A stretch of DNA of 45,299 nucleotides from Acidocella sp. (lineage in GTDB: Bacteria; Pseudomonadota; Alphaproteobacteria; Acetobacterales; Acetobacteraceae): assembly GCA_029077825.1 (NCBI GenBank), contig JAQNCT010000016.1, positions 1 to 45,299 on the forward strand, in the 5' to 3' direction. Below are positions 12,212-36,747 of this stretch, in pieces. Each line of letters begins with the position of its first letter. The first letter of the stretch is position 1. The position numbers and the translations under genes are program-made. The notes under the pieces are model-generated. The model was not told where the DNA came from. It ran no database searches and was given only the letters and a program-made list of their open reading frames with translations.

Positions 12212-14047
12212 TTAATCAGAGTCCCGCTCGGCGCGCTCGGCACGCGACAAGGCCGAGCTTAGCCTGATAAATTTTTGCACCGTTTCCGGGTCGTCAGGGG
12301 CGGCCATGTAGCGTTGGCGCTGCTCGTCTCGTTGATCGCGCAATCGCAACCGGCTGGACCTCATCAAACCGAACATCTCCCACCATAGGTCAGCAGCTTC
12401 CGCCAATGTAGCACTCGCTGCAGCACTGGCAGGCAAGGGTGACATGGCAAGAATACGCGCTGCCACAATGCCCAGCGCATTTTGCGGTAAGTGAGTGAGG
12501 TGGCCTTGTAAGTCAAGGGTTTCGTTGCTGTGGTGCAATTTTTGGTCCGGATTCGACGCCATATAGGCGGAAAATGCCTCGCGGAGTTTGGCGCAGTCCG
12601 GCGGCAGGTCAATCAGGGCAAAGGCTTCTTCGACATCATGCAGCAATTGCGGGTGGTTCAGAAGGATGGCGGTGAGGATTTTGCCACGCTCAATATCGGC
12701 GGCGGCGGGGTCAATGGCCGGGCGGGGCACCCGCAACACTGGCGCTTTTGGCTGTGAGCCGAATTTTTTACTGCCAATTTTGCCGCCGGTACGGGGCCGT
12801 TCGGCAAAAAACCGGTCCAACAGCATGGCGCGGTATTCGCCAGCCAGGGCTTTGTCGGGAATTTTATTGGCGGTTTCCACCAGCCTGGCACGCAGGGCGG
12901 CGCGGCCTTCCGGTGTAGCGGTAACGGCGCCTTCGGCCAGCATGTCAAACAGCACAGCTGATAGCGGAAAGGCACCATCAAGCTGGGATTTGAAGGCCGC
13001 CGGCCCGTTTTTACGGATCAGGCTGTCAGGGTCTTCCTTTTCTGGTAATCGCAAAAATTTCAGGGTGCGATCAGGGGCAAGACCGCCCAGCGCTAATTCC
13101 ACCGTGCGCATCGCGGCGCGGCGGCCAGCATTATCGGCGTCAAAACAAATAACCGGTGCTGGGCTAAGATGCCAGATATCCTCCAGCTGCTCCTCGGTCA
13201 GTGCGGTGCCCAGTGGCGCCACCGCGCCGCCAAAACCCGCCTGCGCCAAAGCGATAACATCCATATAGCCTTCCACGATGATCAGCGGCTCGCCCTTGCG
13301 CACCGCCTCGCGGGCAAAATTCAGCCCATAAAGCGAACGCCGCTTAGAAAAGGCTAGCGTTTCAGGGCCATTGACATATTTAGGCTGGCCATCACCCAAC
13401 ATCCGCCCGCCGAAGCTGATCTTAGCGCCCCTGCGGTCAGTGATGGGGAACATGACGCGCGAGAAGAACATATCAACCGGGCCACGGTCGGATAATTTCA
13501 TCAAACCGGCTTCAATCAATTGCTCGGGCGTAATGCCCTGGCGGGCCAGCGCGTTGGCTAGTTGGCTCCGCCCCTCGCCTGACCACCCCAGGCCAAATTT
13601 TTTAATCGTGGCGTCCGAGAGGCCGCGACCGCGCAAATAATCCAGGGCCGGTTTACCCTCGGGCGCGAACAGCCATTTTTGGTATTGCAGGCCGGCGGTT
13701 TCCAGCACCTCGGCAATACCGGCGCGCTTTTGCTCGGCTTCGGCGGCTTGCGGGCTGGCTTTGGGCACTTCTAGCCCGGCTTCGGCGGCCAGAGTTTCCA
13801 CCGCCTCCATAAACCCGGCACCGGTGGATTTCATGATGAAGGTGATAACGTCGCCATGTTCACCGCACCCAAAGCAATGGAAATGATCATCATACACATA
13901 GAACGATGGGGTTTTCTCGCCGTGGAACGGGCAGCAGCCTTTTGAATCGCGACCGGATTTGGTCAGCCGCACGCTGCGGCCAATCAATGCCGCAATCGGC
14001 GTGCGGGCCCGTAACTCGTCCAGAAACGCGGGCGATAAACTAGCCAA
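12212..14047 (-). CDS. dnaG: DNA primase DnaG
   Basis: Makes RNA primers for replication, working with the replicative helicase. The 611-residue protein has an N-terminal CHC2 zinc finger (C39, H42, C58, C61). A catalytic core follows with the Toprim acidic residue in 'IIVEGYMDV' (E259) and the metal-binding 'FDADNAG' (D303, D305). A divergent C-terminal helicase-interaction domain ends the chain. The first 8 bases overlap the end of yqeY, and rpoD follows by 66 bases, so the three are probably one transcript. Confidence 0.98.
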   Translation of the reverse strand: MASLSPAFLDELRARTPIAALIGRSVRLTKSGRDSKGCCPFHGEKTPSFYVYDDHFHCFGCGEHGDVITFIMKSTGAGFMEAVETLAAEAGLEVPKASPQAAEAEQKRAGIAEVLETAGLQYQKWLFAPEGKPALDYLRGRGLSDATIKKFGLGWSGEGRSQLANALARQGITPEQLIEAGLMKLSDRGPVDMFFSRVMFPITDRRGAKISFGGRMLGDGQPKYVNGPETLAFSKRRSLYGLNFAREAVRKGEPLIIVEGYMDVIALAQAGFGGAVAPLGTALTEEQLEDIWHLSPAPVICFDADNAGRRAAMRTVELALGGLAPDRTLKFLRLPEKEDPDSLIRKNGPAAFKSQLDGAFPLSAVLFDMLAEGAVTATPEGRAALRARLVETANKIPDKALAGEYRAMLLDRFFAERPRTGGKIGSKKFGSQPKAPVLRVPRPAIDPAAADIERGKILTAILLNHPQLLHDVEEAFALIDLPPDCAKLREAFSAYMASNPDQKLHHSNETLDLQGHLTHLPQNALGIVAARILAMSPLPASAAASATLAEAADLWWEMFGLMRSSRLRLRDQRDEQRQRYMAAPDDPETVQKFIRLSSALSRAERAERDSD

Positions 14048-14495
14048 GTGCCGCTTTCACCGCCTGTGAGACCGCACCCATATCAAGTGCGGCACCATGC
14101 TTGGCTTTCAACGCGCCGATCACCTTACCCATATCTTTAGGTGAAGTGGCACCGGTTTCAGCAATGGCGCCAGCAACCGCGCCCGCCAGCGCCTCACCTG
14201 ACAATGTTTGGGGTAAGAATTTTTCAATAACAGTAATTTCCGCCTCTTCCTTCGCAGCTAATTCCTCGCGCCCGCCCTGGCGGTACAACGCCACAGCATC
14301 CCTGCGGGATTTGATCATTGAGCGCAGCATGGCGAAAATCTCGTCATCGGGGATGGCGGTGATACCTTTTGGCCGGGCGGCAATGTCAGTGTCCTTCAGC
14401 TTGGCCTGGACCATCCGAAGCGTGGAGGTGCGATCAGCGTCGCGGGCCAGCATGGCGGTTTTTACGGCGGCAGTAATATCTTCACGCAAACTCAT
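14040..14495 (-). CDS. GatB/YqeY-domain protein
   Basis: A 151-residue protein of the YqeY family, related to the tail domain of the tRNA-amidotransferase subunit GatB. Visible family features are the N-terminal 'LREDITAAVKTAMLARD', the central 'AEITVIEKFLPQTLS' and the C-terminal 'DMGKVIGALKAKHG'. Its function is not firmly known, possibly tRNA binding. In many bacteria it stands next to dnaG-rpoD, as here. The ATG has a good ribosome site (GGGAAGAG). Its 5' end faces carA, and the 78-base divergent gap contains CCGGAAT-type repeats that may affect both genes. Confidence 0.9.
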   Translation of the reverse strand: MSLREDITAAVKTAMLARDADRTSTLRMVQAKLKDTDIAARPKGITAIPDDEIFAMLRSMIKSRRDAVALYRQGGREELAAKEEAEITVIEKFLPQTLSGEALAGAVAGAIAETGATSPKDMGKVIGALKAKHGAALDMGAVSQAVKAALG

Positions 14496-14515
14496 CGCTC
14501 TTCCCTTCGGATAGT

Positions 14516-14523
14516 AATTCCGG
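14516..14523. promoter_or_regulatory. Extra AATTCCGG half-site in the yqeY/carA divergent region
   Basis: AATTCCGG at 14516-14523 repeats the right arm of the palindrome inside the carA promoter (same 8 bases at 14554-14561). It lies just upstream of the yqeY ribosome site, so a protein that recognises the palindrome could also touch the divergent yqeY-dnaG-rpoD promoter. Confidence 0.4.
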
Positions 14524-14538
14524 CACTCGATAAAAATA

Positions 14539-14567
14539 TTGAACCCGGAAATAAATTCCGGTACAGT
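14539..14567 (+). promoter_or_regulatory. Candidate carA promoter with an operator filling the spacer
   Basis: TTGAAC (14539-14544) and TACAGT (14562-14567) are separated by exactly 17 bases. Those 17 bases are a perfect inverted repeat, CCGGAA-ATAAA-TTCCGG (14545-14561). A repressor bound there would block RNA polymerase directly. The -10 ends 6 bases before the ATG at 14574, which has no Shine-Dalgarno. The likely binder is the helix-turn-helix domain encoded immediately downstream, which would make this autoregulation; that is inference. Confidence 0.6.
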
Positions 14568-14573
14568 ATTTTT

Positions 14574-15902
14574 ATGCCAATATCCATCACCGACCTACTA
14601 GATCGTCTCGGCGGCACGGATGCTGCCGCCACTTTAACAGGGGTTTCGCCCGAAGCGATACGCAAATGGCGCAGCGCTAACGCCATTCCCACGCGCCATT
14701 GGCCGGCGATTATGGCCGCTACCGGATTGAACATCGAAGACCTGCCAGGAGCTGCCATGGAGACCGACACACCGCCCGGCGCGACTGCCGCATTGGTTTT
14801 GGCCGATGGCACAGTATTCTGGGGTCGCGGTTTTGGGGCGCATGGTACCAGCCAACCAGCCGAGCTTTGCTTCTCCACCGGCATGACCGGCTATCAAGAG
14901 ACATTAACTGACCCCTCATTTGCCGGGCAGATCATCACATTTACCTTCCCGCATATCGGCAATGTGGGCAGTAATGATGAAGACTTGGAAGCAACCAACA
15001 TCGCCGCCCGCGGGCTGGTAACGTCTCAAGACCCGACCGAACCTTCCAACTACCGCGCCACCAGTAACCTTGATCACTGGCTGAAAAAGCACAACGTGCC
15101 GGGCATCGCCGGGGTTGATACCCGCGCACTTACCTTAAGCATCCGTGACCTGGGCGCGCCCAACGCGGTGCTGAGCTACCCGGCGGATGGAAAATTCGAC
15201 CTTGCAGCACTCACCGCAACAGCAGCTGCCTGGGGTGGGATGGATGGGCTGGACCTCGCCCGCGAAGTTTCCTGCACCCAAAGCTATGAATGGACCGCCG
15301 GCACCTGGCGTTGGGAAAGCGGCTTTAGCACGCCTGCCTTGCAACATACCGTGGTGGCGGTGGATTTCGGCGCCAAGCGCAATATTCTGCGCAGCCTGGC
15401 TTCGGCGGGTTGCAAGGTAATCGTGGTGCCGGCCACCACCAGTGCTGCTGAAATTTTGCGCCATCAGCCTGATGGCGTGTTCCTCTCCAATGGCCCTGGC
15501 GACCCCGCCGCGACGGCAACCTATGCGGTCCCTGCGATTCAGGGGGTAATGGCAGCCGGCGTGCCGATTTTTGGGATTTGTCTCGGCCATCAGCTCCTGG
15601 CAACAGCTTTGGGGGGTAAAACCTACAAGCTGGAGCGCGGCCACCGGGGTGCCAACCAGCCGGTGCAGGATTTAACCACCGGCAAGGTGGAAATTACGTC
15701 ACAAAATCATGGCTTTGCGGTCGATGAAGCCTCGCTGCCGGATGGCGTGGAAGTGACGCATAAAAGCCTGTTCGATGGCTCCAACGAAGGCATTGCTTGC
15801 AAAGCCAAGCGCGTGTTCTCGGTGCAGTACCACCCGGAAGCCTCGCCGGGGCCCTCAGATTCCTCATATTTGTTTCGGCGCTTTGTTGAAATGATGGGCT
15901 AG
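14574..15902 (+). CDS. carA: Carbamoyl-phosphate synthase small subunit CarA with N-terminal Cro/CI-like HTH extension
   Basis: Glutaminase subunit that supplies ammonia to CarB for carbamoyl phosphate, feeding arginine and pyrimidine synthesis. The CarA part (from about residue 70) has the class-I amidotransferase nucleophile in 'GICLGHQ' and the catalytic 'HPE' near the C-terminus. The ORF is 442 residues. The first 60 are extra and resemble a Cro/CI-type helix-turn-helix: 'ITDLLDRLGG', then 'TDAAATLTGVSPEAIRKWR', then 'IPTRHWPAIMAATG'. No stop separates the two parts. An internal ATG at 14757 preceded by AGGAG (14747-14751) would give an ordinary 381-residue CarA. The product could therefore be a fusion, a standard CarA, or both. 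The carB partner is not adjacent: an ATPase gene intervenes. Confidence 0.92.
   Translation: MPISITDLLDRLGGTDAAATLTGVSPEAIRKWRSANAIPTRHWPAIMAATGLNIEDLPGAAMETDTPPGATAALVLADGTVFWGRGFGAHGTSQPAELCFSTGMTGYQETLTDPSFAGQIITFTFPHIGNVGSNDEDLEATNIAARGLVTSQDPTEPSNYRATSNLDHWLKKHNVPGIAGVDTRALTLSIRDLGAPNAVLSYPADGKFDLAALTATAAAWGGMDGLDLAREVSCTQSYEWTAGTWRWESGFSTPALQHTVVAVDFGAKRNILRSLASAGCKVIVVPATTSAAEILRHQPDGVFLSNGPGDPAATATYAVPAIQGVMAAGVPIFGICLGHQLLATALGGKTYKLERGHRGANQPVQDLTTGKVEITSQNHGFAVDEASLPDGVEVTHKSLFDGSNEGIACKAKRVFSVQYHPEASPGPSDSSYLFRRFVEMMG
14747..14759 (+). promoter_or_regulatory. Internal ribosome-binding site and alternative carA start
   Basis: AGGAG (14747-14751), 5-base spacer, ATG at 14757-14759. 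This is a far better ribosome site than anything before the ATG at 14574. It would start CarA at residue 62 of the long ORF, matching the length of ordinary CarA proteins. Confidence 0.65.
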
Positions 15903-15976: not shown

Positions 15977-17161
15977 ATGGACCCACTTCGCAACCCCTTT
16001 GCCCCAGGTGCTGGAACGCCCCCACCTGAATTGAGTGGCCGGGACGCCCTGATGCTGCGGGCAGCAACAGCCCTTGGGCGTATCCAGCAAGGCCGCTCTG
16101 AAAAAAGCCTGGTTCTGGTAGGCTTGCGCGGCGTTGGCAAAACGGTTCTCCTCAACGAAATCCGCCGTCACGCTGAGGATTTATCGTACCGCACCTGCCT
16201 GATTGAAGCTCATGAAGGCAAAACGCTCCCGGCTTTGTTGGTTCCGCATCTACGCCGAATTCTACTGGGACTAGACCGGATGGAAGCACTAAACGAGCAG
16301 GTCAAACGCGGCCTGCGTGTGCTGAAAAGCTTCATGAACGGCATCAAGACCAAATTTGGCGAGGTGGAAATATCTCTCGATATTGATGCGGAGATCGGTG
16401 CTGCGGATAGCGGCGATTTGGAGGCCGACCTGCCCGAACTCATGCTCGCCTTGGGCCGGGCGGGGCAGTCCAGGGGCATTGCCATTGGTTTGTTTGTCGA
16501 TGAAGTACAATATTTTCAAACGGCTGAACTCAGTGCTTTGATTATGGCAATGCACCGGATTGCGCAGGAAAACATGCCCGTGATCCTGTTCGCCGCTGGG
16601 CTGCCGCAAATTATCGCGTTGTTTGGCAATTCTAAATCCTATGCCGAGCGCCTGTTCGATTTTCCAGAGATCGGCCCGCTTGGCCCCGCCGATGCCAGCG
16701 CCGCCCTCAGCAAACCTGCCGCAGTTGAACAGGTGCGTTTCTCGGAACAAGCGCTTGGCTATATTTTCAGCCAATCGCGCGGCTACCCGTTTTTCTTGCA
16801 GGAATGGGGCTACCATACCTGGAACATTGCAAAATCGGCAGATATTTCCATCGAGGATACCTATGCTGCTTCCAGCATCGCCATGACCAGGCTGGACGAA
16901 GGATTTTTCCGTGTCCGGTTCGACCGCCTCACGCCACGAGAAAAAAATTATCTGCGGGCCATGGCCGAGCTTGGGCCGGGCGCGCAAAGATCAGGTGAGA
17001 TTGCCAAAATACTCCATAAAAAATCTTCCGATCTTGGCCCGCTGCGTGACGGGTTGATCGGCAAGGGCATGATTTATGCCCCCGCCCATGGCGATATCGC
17101 TTTTACTGTACCGATGTTTGACGAATTCATGCGCCGCATCATGCCGCAAGCCTCATTTTGA
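15977..17161 (+). CDS. AAA ATPase of unknown role, Orc1/Cdc6-like architecture, between carA and carB
   Basis: A 394-residue P-loop ATPase: Walker A 'GLRGVGKT' (49-56), Walker B 'GLFVDEVQ' (171-178, acidic pair D175-E176) and a sensor-1-like strand 'PVILFAAGLP' (about 201-210). The C-terminal 75 residues (from 'LTPREKNYLRAMAEL') look like a winged-helix domain. The plan recalls Orc1/Cdc6 and STAND-type ATPases; similar stand-alone proteins are usually annotated only as ATP-binding proteins. No function is recognised. It splits carA from carB, carries its own AT-rich promoter, and ends 12 bases before carB, so carB may depend partly on its transcription. It could be an acquired gene, perhaps stress- or defence-related; that is speculation. 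Confidence 0.88.
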   Translation: MDPLRNPFAPGAGTPPPELSGRDALMLRAATALGRIQQGRSEKSLVLVGLRGVGKTVLLNEIRRHAEDLSYRTCLIEAHEGKTLPALLVPHLRRILLGLDRMEALNEQVKRGLRVLKSFMNGIKTKFGEVEISLDIDAEIGAADSGDLEADLPELMLALGRAGQSRGIAIGLFVDEVQYFQTAELSALIMAMHRIAQENMPVILFAAGLPQIIALFGNSKSYAERLFDFPEIGPLGPADASAALSKPAAVEQVRFSEQALGYIFSQSRGYPFFLQEWGYHTWNIAKSADISIEDTYAASSIAMTRLDEGFFRVRFDRLTPREKNYLRAMAELGPGAQRSGEIAKILHKKSSDLGPLRDGLIGKGMIYAPAHGDIAFTVPMFDEFMRRIMPQASF

Positions 17162-17173
17162 ACAGGACCTACC

Positions 17174-20100
17174 ATGCCCAAACGCACTGACATTAAATCC
17201 ATCATGATCATCGGCGCTGGGCCAATAGTCATTGGCCAGGCTTGCGAGTTTGACTATTCCGGTGCGCAGGCCTGCAAGGCGCTGCGTGAGGAAGGCTACC
17301 GGGTGATCCTGGTGAACTCGAACCCCGCCACCATCATGACTGACCCCTCATTGGCCGATGCCACATACATCGAACCTATCACACCAGAGATGGTGGAAAA
17401 AATTATCATCCGTGAAAAGCCAGACGCGCTGCTGCCCACCATGGGCGGGCAGACCGCGCTGAATACCGCCATGTCACTCGCAAAATCCGGCACTCTGGAA
17501 AAACATGGCGTGGAACTCATCGGCGCGAAGGCCGATGTGATAGACCGGGCTGAAGACCGTTTGAAATTCCGTGACGCAATGGCCGAAATTGGCATTGCCG
17601 GGCCAAAATCTGCGATTGCGCATAACCGCGAGGAAGCCGCGGCGGCTTTAGAGCTTGTCGGCCTGCCCGCTGTGATTCGCCCCTCCTTCACGCTAGGTGG
17701 CACCGGTGGTGGCATTGCCTATAACCGCGAAGAATTTTTTGAAATTGTGACCTCCGGGATTGATGCCTCGCCCACCAATGAAGTGCTGGTGGAAGAATCC
17801 GTGTTGGGGTGGAAAGAATATGAAATGGAGGTGGTGCGCGACTGCGCTGATAATTGCATCATTATCTGCTCGATTGAAAACATTGACCCGATGGGTGTGC
17901 ATACCGGCGATAGCGTTACCGTGGCCCCTGCCCTGACGCTGACTGATAAAGAATACCAGATCATGCGCGATGCCTCGATTGCGTGTTTGCGCAAAATTGG
18001 CGTGGATACCGGCGGCTCGAACGTGCAGTTCGGCATCAACCCGGAAGATGGCCGGATGGTGGTGATTGAGATGAACCCGCGCGTCTCGCGTTCATCCGCC
18101 CTGGCCTCCAAAGCCACCGGGTTCCCGATCGCCAAAATCGCCGCCAAGTTGGCGGTTGGCTATACGCTCGATGAACTGAAAAACGACATTACCAAAGCTA
18201 CACCAGCGAGTTTTGAGCCGGTGATTGATTACGTGGTGATCAAAATCCCGCGTTTTACCTTTGAGAAATTTCCCGGCACTCCGGCTTTGCTCTCAACCTC
18301 GATGAAGTCAGTCGGTGAGGCAATGGCGATTGGGCGTAACTTTGCCGAAGCCTTGCAAAAGGGCTTGCGCAGCCTGGAAACCGGGCTTTCTGGCCTTGAT
18401 GAAATGCCAGCCCCCGGTGATGGTACAGCGGATGCCTACCGCGCGGCTCTTTCAACCCCACGGCCTGACCGGCTGTTGATTGCCGCACAGGCATTACGGG
18501 CTGGTTTGAGCGTTGAAGATATCCACGCCGCTTGCAAATTTGACCCCTGGTATCTCGACCAGATGCAAAAAATCATCGACGCCGAAAACGAGGTGAAAAA
18601 GAACGGCCTGCCGCGCGAGGCTTTTGCGATGCGCCGTTTGAAGGCGCTTGGTTTTGCCGATAAGCGACTGGCGGAACTGACCGGCCAGAAAGAAACCGCC
18701 ATCACCACCGCGCGGCTGAAAATGGGCGTAACACCGGTGTATAAGCGCATTGATACTTCAGCCGGCGAATTCGCTACGGCAGCTTCATATATGTACGGCA
18801 CTTATGAAGGCGCTTACGGCGTGCCGGTTTGTGAAGCCAACCCTACCGCGCGCGATAAAATCATCATTCTTGGTGGTGGCCCCAACAGAATCGGCCAGGG
18901 CATCGAGTTTGATTATTGCTGTGTGCACGCCGCTTACGCGCTGCGCGATGCGGGCTTTGAGACCATCATGGTCAATTGCAACCCCGAAACGGTCTCTACT
19001 GACTATGACACCTCTGACCGGCTGTATTTCGAGCCGCTGTTTGCCGAGGATGTGATTGCGCTGATCCGCCGCGAGCAGGAAAACGGCAAGTTGCTGGGCT
19101 GTATCGTGCAATATGGCGGGCAGACGCCGCTCAAACTCTCACAGGCGCTTGAAGAAGCCCACATCCCCATTCTGGGCACCACGGCGGATGCGATCGACAT
19201 TGCCGAAGACCGCGAGCGCTTTGCCGTATTGTTAAAAAAACTTGGCTTGCGCCAACCTGACAACGGCATTGCCCGCTCCCCCGAGCAGGCGGAAGCCATT
19301 GCTGATACCATTGGCTACCCCATCATCATCCGCCCTTCCTATGTGCTGGGCGGCCGGGCGATGGAAATTGTTTATGACCGCAACGGCCTGGCCCGCTACA
19401 TGCGCGAAATTGTGCGAGCCTCGCCCGAGAACCCGGTGCTGATTGACCGCTATTTGAATGAAGCTTCTGAAGTGGATGTGGATTGCATCTGCGATGGCGA
19501 GACCGTGTATGTGGCCGGCGTGATGGAACATATCGAGGAGGCTGGCATTCACTCTGGTGATTCTGCTTGCTCAATCCCACCATTCTCGCTCTCACCTGCC
19601 ATTGTGGCGGAGCTGCGGGCCGAGACCGAAGCGATGGCCAAGGCGCTGCACGTGGTAGGGCTGATGAATGTGCAATATGCCATTCAGAATGATTTAATTT
19701 ATGTGCTGGAAGTAAACCCCCGTGCCTCTCGCACGGTGCCATTTGTTGCCAAGGCCACCGGCGTTGCCGTAGCCAAAATTGGCGCCCGCGTGATGGCGGG
19801 GGAAAAGCTGGCCTCCTTCAAGCTCGATGATTCGGTCGCCCTGCGTCATGTGGCGGTGAAAGAGGCGGTATTCCCGTTCGCGCGCTTCCCGAATATTGAC
19901 ACGCTGCTGGGGCCGGAGATGAAATCCACCGGTGAGGTGATGGGGCTGGATACCAGCTTTGCCCGCGCTTTCGCCAAAGCCCAGTTGGGGGCTGGGGTAA
20001 AACTGCCGCTCTCGGGCACCGCGTTCCTCTCCGTGAAGGAATCTGACAAAGCCGCCATCGTGCCGGTGGCGCGCAGGCTCTCCGAGATGGGCTTCTCAAT

Positions 20101-20416
20101 CCTCGCCACCCGGGGCACGGCAGCGCACATCGCCAAGGCGGGGATTCCGGTTAAATCGGTCAACAAGGTGCTGGAAGGCCGCCCGCACTGCGTGGATGCC
20201 ATCCGCTCGGGCGAGATCCAACTGGTCATCAACACCGCTCACGGGGCGCAATCGGTGGCGGATAGCTTCGATATCCGACGCTCCGCCCTCACCCACCAGG
20301 TGCCGAACTTCACCACCATTGCGGCGGCGCGGGCCACTGCCCATGCCATTGCGGCCTTAATTTCGGGCAGTCTTGAAGTTGCGCCGCTTCAGTCGTACTT
20401 TCCGCAATCTTTTTGA
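17174..20416 (+). CDS. carB: Carbamoyl-phosphate synthase large subunit CarB
   Basis: Synthesises carbamoyl phosphate from bicarbonate, ammonia and two ATP. The 1080-residue length is normal. It shows the expected internal duplication: each half has a pre-ATP-grasp domain ('[20 protein letters not shown]' near residue 11; '[20 protein letters not shown]' near 560) followed by an ATP-grasp domain with the 'EMNPR'/'EVNPR' metal-binding motifs. The last 140 residues form the MGS-like allosteric domain. The ATG follows AGGA with a 6-base spacer. It is separated from carA by the AAA ATPase, an unusual arrangement. Confidence 0.98.
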
Positions 20417-35767: not shown

Positions 35768-35841
35768 TTTATGTCCATACAGGAAGGGCGGCACAAGCTA
35801 AACGCCTGAACCGCCCCTCACAAGAGTTTCAACCGGCGGAA

Positions 35842-36747
35842 TTAGATTCCGGCAGCAGCCGCCACTTCCGCCGCAAAATCGGAGGTTTCCTTCTCGATGC
35901 CCTCGCCGAGATGGAACCGCACGAAGCGTTCAATCTTGGCACCGGCCTTCTCGACCACGGCTTTGACCTTGCTTTCACCATCAATCACCCAGGTCTGTTC
36001 CAGCAGCACCACGTCTTCATAATATTTCGCAATCCGGCCCGTCATCATTTTCTCGATGATGGCTTCCGGTTTGCCAGAAGCCCGCGCCTGCTCAGACAGC
36101 ACAGATTTTTCACGCTCCAGCGCCGCTGGATCAACCTCAGCGATGCTCAGCGCATCCGGACGGGTGGCAGCCACATGCATGCCGATCTGGCGGCCCAGGG
36201 CTTCGGTGGCTTCATTGGCGTTACCCGAAAGCCCGACCAGCACACCAATTTTGCCAAGGCCCGGCTTCAACGCGCCATGCACATAACCAGCCACAACCCC
36301 GCCTGGAACGTTGATCACAGCAACCCGGCGCACGGTCATGTTCTCACCGATGGTGGCCACCAAATGCACCAATTCATCAGCCACATTACGCGCGGAGCCA
36401 GGGTACGGGGCGGCCTTCAAGGCGTCCACATCCTCACCGACAGTCAAAGCAATTTTCGCGGCGGTTTCAACGAAAGCCTGAAAGGCTTCGTTACGCGCCA
36501 CAAAGTCAGTCTCAGCGTTGATCTCAACCATCGCGCCCTTGCCGGCGGACAAAGCGATACCAACCAGACCTTCAGAAGCCACGCGGCCGGATTTCTTCGC
36601 GGCAGCCGAAAGGCCCTTCTTGCGCAGCCAATCGATGGCGCCTTGCATGTCGCCATCACTCTCCACCAGCGCTTTTTTGCAATCCATCATGCCAGCGCCG
36701 GATGTCTCACGCAGGTCTTTTACCAGCGCCGCAGTAATTTCAGCCAT
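35842..36747 (-). CDS. tsf: Translation elongation factor Ts
   Basis: Guanine-nucleotide exchange factor for EF-Tu. The 301-residue protein has the N-terminal UBA-like domain ('[20 protein letters not shown]') and the '[10 protein letters not shown]' motif (near residues 80-90) that inserts into EF-Tu, followed by two core subdomains. An excellent AGAGGAG ribosome site precedes the ATG. It follows rpsB by 81 bases, with a hairpin between them. Confidence 0.98.

Follow-up and report, generated by a model that had tools for sequence, protein, structure and literature searches.

A Cro-like DNA-binding domain fused to the carbamoyl-phosphate synthase small subunit in Acetobacteraceae and its probable role in the autoregulation of carAB

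Results and discussion

The carA gene of Acidocella sp. encodes a fusion protein, referred to as HTH-CarA, in which a Cro-like helix-turn-helix (HTH) domain precedes the small subunit of carbamoyl-phosphate synthase, and two palindromes are present upstream of this gene. Comparison of the gene and its promoter with those of relatives makes it likely that HTH-CarA is a trigger enzyme that autoregulates carAB via these two palindromes; by the same evidence, the fusion protein very probably limits its own production. All coordinates given below are those of the window, the 45,299-nucleotide stretch that was analysed (contig JAQNCT010000016.1 of assembly GCA_029077825.1).

The HTH-CarA gene and its product

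The HTH-CarA gene (14574..15902, forward strand) starts at ATG 14574 and runs through 442 codons to 15902 without a stop, as had been pointed out in an initial annotation of this DNA, and its 442-aa product matches both the TIGR01368 and NF046037 profiles. Residues 72-441 constitute the CarA part (TIGR01368, 448.6 bits; curated cut-off, 307.35), namely the small subunit of carbamoyl-phosphate synthase, which feeds arginine and pyrimidine synthesis. In the glutaminase site, C336, H420, and E422 are invariant in all 33 aligned proteins and show the same spacing as the glutaminase residues Cys269, His353, and Glu355 of E. coli. As judged from this alignment, the glutaminase residues of the window CarA are kept. 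Ten residues of the HTH domain, including R30, K31, and W32, are invariant in 33 proteins as well. Because residues of both the HTH domain and the glutaminase site are invariant in these proteins, both halves of the fusion look functional. The enzyme part and the DNA-binding domain are located on one chain, as in trigger enzymes that carry a DNA-binding domain. The linker between them (residues 58-70; 14745..14783, forward strand) is modelled with low confidence and is variable among relatives, and the solved E. coli small chain can be aligned with the window protein only from residue 71 on.

The gene for the large subunit, carB (17174..20416), lies downstream of carA on the same (forward) strand, and carB follows carA in all seven of the longer relative loci. 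Between carA and carB, the window contains an ATPase gene (15977-17161; Pfam match to AAA/AAA_16), which is also present in locus L347 and was looked for without success in six other relatives. On the other side, yqeY (14040..14495, reverse strand; PF09424, 149.2 bits) is divergently oriented, and the intergenic region holds both predicted operators. Among 113 HTH-CarA genes, 100 were found to have a divergent YqeY gene in the 900 bp that precede them.

The N-terminal domain is Cro-like

The HTH domain covers residues 1-57 (14574..14744, forward strand), as assigned by the NF046037 match, the predicted structure, and a Foldseek search. NF046037, the NCBIfam model for the 'carph-isopro domain', matches residues 6-57 with 61.0 bits (cut-off, 38) and reaches 64.3 bits when the N-terminal 80 residues are queried alone. 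The window domain is therefore a member of this family by score; the model names the domain only, and its name presumably records that the curators saw the domain on carbamoyl-phosphate synthase. Pfam searches with the N-terminal stretch yielded P22_Cro / YdaS (PF14549, PF15943) below threshold, with scores of 18.4-22.0 for PF14549 (gathering threshold, 30.2) and 19.6-23.0 for PF15943 (threshold, 30).

The predicted structure of the domain (mean pLDDT, 86.1 when modelled alone) comprises four helices, at residues 5-11 or 5-12, 15-22, 26-35, and 40-50, and contains the recognition-helix region VSPEAIRKWRSAN. When a profile of eleven N-termini was compared with the PDB, it matched N15 Cro (2hin/6on0, E=0.00078), the hybrid XPH1 (E=0.00084), and Xfaso 1 Cro (3bd1, E=0.0018). 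Foldseek also placed these three proteins at the top ranks and P22 Cro at rank 22; the TM-scores (query) to 2hin, 6on0, 3bd1, and 1rzs were 0.63-0.72, the best one (0.72) being that to 3bd1, with no E-value below 0.001. The modelled domain thus shares the helical fold of P22/N15 Cro, and the Cro/CI-like HTH that the initial annotation had placed at the N-terminus of CarA can be specified as Cro-like from the NF046037 match, the PDB profile search, and Foldseek. Its nearest solved folds are those of the Cro proteins from the phages N15, Xfaso 1, and P22 (2hin, 6on0, 3bd1, and 1rzs). Unlike these proteins, the window domain is joined to an enzyme, and we could not recognise a dimerising part belonging to the domain.

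The conservation of the HTH region relative to the CarA part had been suggested as a check of this assignment. Over eight pairs of sequences, dN/dS was about 0.05-0.22 for the HTH part (dN, 0.008-0.267; dS, 0.177-2.25) and 0.06-0.23 for the CarA part, as calculated by NG86 from ungapped positions with some dS values close to saturation; the two ranges are alike.

Two palindromes in the carA promoter

The proximal predicted operator CCGGAAATAAATTCCGG (14545..14561) has the form CCGGAA-N5-TTCCGG, in which all 12 arm bases pair. It fills the spacer between the predicted -35 hexamer TTGAAC (14539..14544, forward strand) and the predicted -10 hexamer TACAGT (14562..14567, forward strand), in agreement with the earlier description of a perfect 17-base palindrome as the spacer. 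A second, weaker palindrome, which the initial annotation had overlooked, is present 38 bp further upstream (distal predicted operator TCGGATAGTAATTCCGG, 14507..14523), with 11 bases separating it from the yqeY start codon. Six bases lie between TACAGT and ATG 14574, and the mRNA is predicted to be leaderless. As a bare pattern, the palindrome has four matches in the window at two or fewer mismatches versus 2.69 expected by chance. Alone in the window it is unremarkable, and it is the conservation among relatives that puts the palindrome beyond chance.

To describe this conservation, 139 fused loci were reduced to 113 with distinct promoter sequences, and the 160 bp before the start codon were scanned. 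GGAA-N5-TTCC was found with at least seven of its eight bases in all 113 HTH-CarA promoters and with all eight in 109. The best score among 20 carA loci without HTH was 6, and none reached 7 of 8 (the controls represent 19 genomes, as L258 and L260 are one gene). The palindromes thus accompany the HTH domain on CarA (113/113 fused versus 0/20 HTH-less promoters), with the qualification that the 113 loci are mutually related, such that the counts and control comparisons are not independent draws. In shuffled promoters (n=2260), a score of 7 was reached in 11.3% and 8 in 0.8%. Among 338 coding stretches of HTH-CarA loci, 7 reached a score of 7 and 1 a score of 8, and the corresponding numbers for 332 stretches further upstream, in the upstream genes, were 21 and 5.

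Two sites of at least 7 of 8 bases were identified in 95 of the 113 promoters. The spacing between the two is 38-40 bp in 71 of these pairs, 44 bp in 12, and 49 bp in 4, and the remaining 8 show other distances from 35 to 55 bp. Under a looser rule, in which the limit was lowered afterwards to 6 of 8 bases and the two sites had to be separated by 34-56 bp, a pair is present in 111 of the 113 promoters versus none of the 20 controls; L116 and L224 have no second site even by this rule.

Alignment of the 113 promoters on the proximal site yielded GTTGnnn-CGGGAAnnnnnTTCCCA-TA, with TTG of the -35 hexamer at the matching place in 93 loci and TA of the -10 hexamer in 77. By this alignment, the proximal operator is the promoter spacer. 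TTG is absent from the expected place in the other 20 loci, and the proximal site is not located in the spacer everywhere; the Acetobacter sites are found further upstream, at about -65 to -72 and -109 to -116. The gap between the -10 hexamer and ATG is 5-8 bases in 78 of the 113 loci, and a Shine-Dalgarno-like motif is present in only 12. Therefore, HTH-CarA mRNAs are mostly predicted to be leaderless, Acetobacter with its more distant sites being an exception to this geometry. Leaderless mRNAs are real in this family: 62 were found among 1344 mapped starts in Gluconobacter oxydans (PMC5756330), although the word carbamoyl does not occur in the main text of that paper.

In HTH-CarA loci, the residue that follows RKWR is associated with the base that precedes GGAA. 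Ser at this position is accompanied by CGGAA in all 35 loci and Gln by GGGAA in 61 of 66 (three ties and two with C), Ala goes with C in 4/4 loci and His with C in one locus, and Thr is mixed (4 C, 2 G, and 1 tie). L119 and L124 violate the rule. On the CarA tree, which includes 112 of the 113 loci (L128 was too short; 108 have both traits), the residue changes only three times and the operator base four times. Two of the three independent pairs agree, and the third is mostly without a difference (sign test, median p 0.5). The covariation, strong as counts, thus comes down to about three evolutionary events on the tree and was rejected as independent proof; it fits the binding of the sites by HTH-CarA and is suggestive, but not significant by itself.

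Distribution of HTH-CarA

Matches to the domain were obtained in 23 of 24 other genomes drawn from the same genus and in 191 of 200 genomes sampled from the family. HTH-CarA fusions were found at all 24 genus loci (the window included), at all four loci of the class search, at all of the 30 best-scoring loci of the family search, and at all of the best 80 of 345 loci in a named collection, these sets overlapping in organisms. The relatives in the named collection belong to Acidocella, Acidiphilium, Acetobacter, Rhodopila, and other Acetobacteraceae, and the closest three among the matches listed are Acidocella MAGs. A search of CarA orthologues for the extension had been proposed earlier, and, apart from those of one genus, all family loci examined in which carA is not cut indeed carry the HTH. 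Among the fetched loci of other families, which are part of the class-search matches, no HTH-CarA was found.

No domain match was obtained in 9 of the 200 family genomes. Five of these (G427, G447, G514, G565, and G569) gave no CarA match, three (G434, G548, and G580) have carA cut at a contig end, and the ninth is G437; carA is likewise cut in G019, the genus member that lacked a match. G437 (L252) and G520 (L255), which belong to one Acetobacteraceae genus and are 98 and 99% complete, encode full CarA without the HTH, and the sole domain match in G520 is a stand-alone 82-codon ORF far from carA. In the carA promoters of L252 and L255, the best sites have 5 and 6 of 8 bases, and GGAG is found ahead of the start codon instead of the operators. 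Because the HTH is widespread in the family, we read the joint absence of HTH and sites in this genus as one event of joint loss.

In the 2.55-Mb genome, CCGGAA-N5-TTCCGG occurs exactly at only two places. The match other than that in the window (L002 position 1501; G000:C86:17445-17461) lies 25 bp before a 471-codon ORF. With up to three mismatches to CCGGAAAAAATTTCCGG, 15 forward and 12 reverse sites were detected versus 6 and 7 for the reversed control. Ten genomic sites were inspected, seven of which fall within one of the six longest ORFs of their locus and three of which do not, namely those in L002, in L145 (34 bp before a 317-codon ORF), and in L135. The window also contains a near-match at 35836-35852, at the junction of tsf with pyrH, whose product belongs to the amino acid kinase family and is interpreted as UMP kinase. 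This candidate for a pyrH operator overlaps the end of tsf and has at most 6 of 8 core bases in all 24 genus relatives, and was rejected as a chance match.

Model of autoregulation and alternatives

In the model that we favour, HTH-CarA, as part of carbamoyl-phosphate synthase, would make carbamoyl phosphate, and its N-terminal Cro-like domains would bind as pairs to both palindromes upstream of carA. Cro-like domains read palindromes as pairs. Because the proximal site fills the 17-bp spacer between the -35 and -10 hexamers, its occupancy should occlude RNA polymerase and keep it off the carA promoter, and through readthrough carB would be affected as well, resulting in negative feedback on the amount of enzyme. 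The usual distance of 38-40 bp (about 3.7 helical turns) would be suited to cooperative binding by a CarAB oligomer with several HTH domains. Binding, repression, cooperation, and any effector are what we infer from sequence comparison, and our first guess as to the signal is the amount of the protein or an excess of CarA over CarB. The E. coli synthase is shifted towards the (alpha-beta)4 tetramer by ornithine and towards the alpha-beta form by UMP (PMC6245113). We claim no effector because a transfer from E. coli would give repression with high ornithine rather than high UMP; by this analogy, such a naive transfer has the wrong sign for pyrimidine feedback.

The initial annotation had also drawn attention to a second start, ATG 14757..14759 (forward strand; codon of Met62), with AGGAG at 14747-14751, five bases upstream. 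Both elements are present, and they could give rise to plain CarA from 14757 in addition to HTH-CarA from 14574; the internal start could compete all the more readily since the main start is predicted to be leaderless and has no Shine-Dalgarno sequence. However, the codon at the Met62 position in 24 Acidocella-group loci is ATG in 4, GTG in 5, TTG in 1, and no start codon in 14. In several of these 14 loci, the linker offers an alternative in-frame ATG or GTG, a feature that would still permit two products, but the start is not conserved in place, and we regard the claim of two products from nested starts as unlikely. Slightly less probable still is that another regulator, such as a pyrimidine or arginine repressor, binds the palindromes and that the HTH of CarA does something else. 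The residue/base covariation that would link the sites to the HTH rests on about three events, and a second exact genomic match is located 25 bp before an ORF, both of which leave room for such a regulator. In contrast, none of the 20 HTH-less carA promoters has a site, including those of two genomes of the same family, and the tested candidate before pyrH (35836-35852) is absent in all 24 genus relatives.

The position of the operator between the -35 and -10 hexamers, together with a sub-threshold Pfam match to MerR, might suggest activation of the MerR type, in which HTH-CarA would distort the spacer of its own promoter. MerR promoters have a spacer of 19-20 bp, whereas that of the window and, by the aligned TTG, of 93 of the 113 loci is 17 bp, the normal sigma-70 length. 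In addition, the MerR score was 13.9-17.0 versus a cut-off of 28.2, and the fold matches are Cro proteins, which makes activation of this type improbable. The inverted repeats near the start codon could also be thought to form an RNA structure (an attenuator or riboswitch-like element) rather than operators, but both repeats lie upstream of the predicted transcription start and would be untranscribed from that promoter. Moreover, conservation is restricted to GGAA/TTCC and leaves the centre free, most of the sites occur as pairs at near-constant spacing, and we consider an RNA structure very improbable.

The same domain on other enzymes

The Cro-like domain is also found at the N-terminus of other enzymes in other alphaproteobacterial families. 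NCBIfam searches of ten such proteins identified HisZ (three), CoaBC, ArgB, PyrB, SerA, PdhA, crotonyl-CoA carboxylase/reductase (Ccr), and NAD(P)H-hydrate repair enzyme, with two of the HisZ proteins (L087 and L090) below the HisZ cut-offs. Five of the ten proteins (L083, L099, L074, L068, and L057) exceeded the NF046037 cut-off, and the other five scored below it. HisZ fusions are encoded at L083, L084, L087, L089, L090, L092, L093, and L096, CoaBC fusions at L091, L094, L095, and L097, and ArgB fusions at L085 and L088, and further fusions are found at L074, L086, L099 (PyrB), L068, L073, and L057 (NAD(P)HX repair); 10 of these 20 non-CarA fusions were checked by NCBIfam and the others were named by eye. 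Domain matches were obtained in 24 of 28 genomes in the family of L090 and 54 of 61 in that of L094, where the enzyme part was checked for single proteins only. Many domain matches were also located on proteins with a charged or proline-rich region and an apparent membrane segment (L008, L013, L019, L035, L036, L043, L058, L069-L071, and others), which by eye resemble the Mic60/mitofilin family and are perhaps membrane-bound HTH proteins.

An inverted repeat is present in the promoters of 9 of the 20 non-CarA fusions, those of PyrB (L099) and the repair enzyme (L057) being long, and is missing in the other 11, including both Ccr, SerA, and three of the four CoaBC promoters. Four ArgB promoters showed no clear common site. 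The promoters of 24 HTH genes in the L090 family (HisZ type) contain 84 TTCAT half-sites versus 22.6 (sd 4.4) in shuffles, and those of the L094 family (CoaBC type; 28 of 30 loci fetched) contain 64 TTCAC half-sites versus 7.2 (sd 2.6), where both motifs were picked after inspection and the loci are related. The perfect inverted repeats of the HisZ and CoaBC promoters are much less regular than those of carA.

From these sequences, it is plausible that a phage-derived Cro-like domain serves as a general autorepressor tag in Alphaproteobacteria. Each enzyme would recognise, in the promoter of its own gene, an operator specific to the lineage and thus form a one-gene thermostat without a separate repressor, a view to which we give even chances. 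The best reading of HTH-CarA is that of a trigger enzyme that represses its own carAB operon, and it would represent one case of this reused tag.

Relation to known systems and significance

Trigger enzymes to which a DNA-binding domain is fused include PutA, BirA, and NadR (PMC8249747), BirA belonging to group II (PMC4016012). For PutA, binding is confined to one target adjoining its own gene, the putA/putP intergenic region (PMC8249747). HTH-CarA resembles these proteins, as far as described in these sources, in being a metabolic enzyme with a DNA-binding domain and a predicted transcriptional role. It differs from PutA and BirA in that its enzyme is the glutamine amidotransferase subunit CarA and its domain is P22/N15 Cro-like; the domain of PutA is a ribbon-helix-helix and that of BirA a winged helix. 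Unlike PutA, BirA, and NadR, the tag of CarA sits on several unrelated enzymes in Alphaproteobacteria. Trigger enzymes with DNA-binding domains are already established; for HTH-CarA or the carph-isopro domain, searches of the open-access literature returned no publication.

In E. coli, carAB is controlled by ArgR, PurR, RutR, IHF, and the trigger enzyme PepA (PMC6245113). As described there, a trigger enzyme contributes to coupling transcription to the supply of arginine and pyrimidines, which is similar to what we propose here, but the regulators are separate proteins, in contrast to the HTH on CarA. Control of carAB at the arginine/pyrimidine branch in E. coli is the textbook example of a promoter served by numerous individual regulators. 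In the family to which the vinegar bacteria belong, by contrast, the repressor seems to have become part of the enzyme. If the tag also works on other enzymes, it would be a simple natural part for self-limiting expression, with which regulation may be rewired without new regulator genes.
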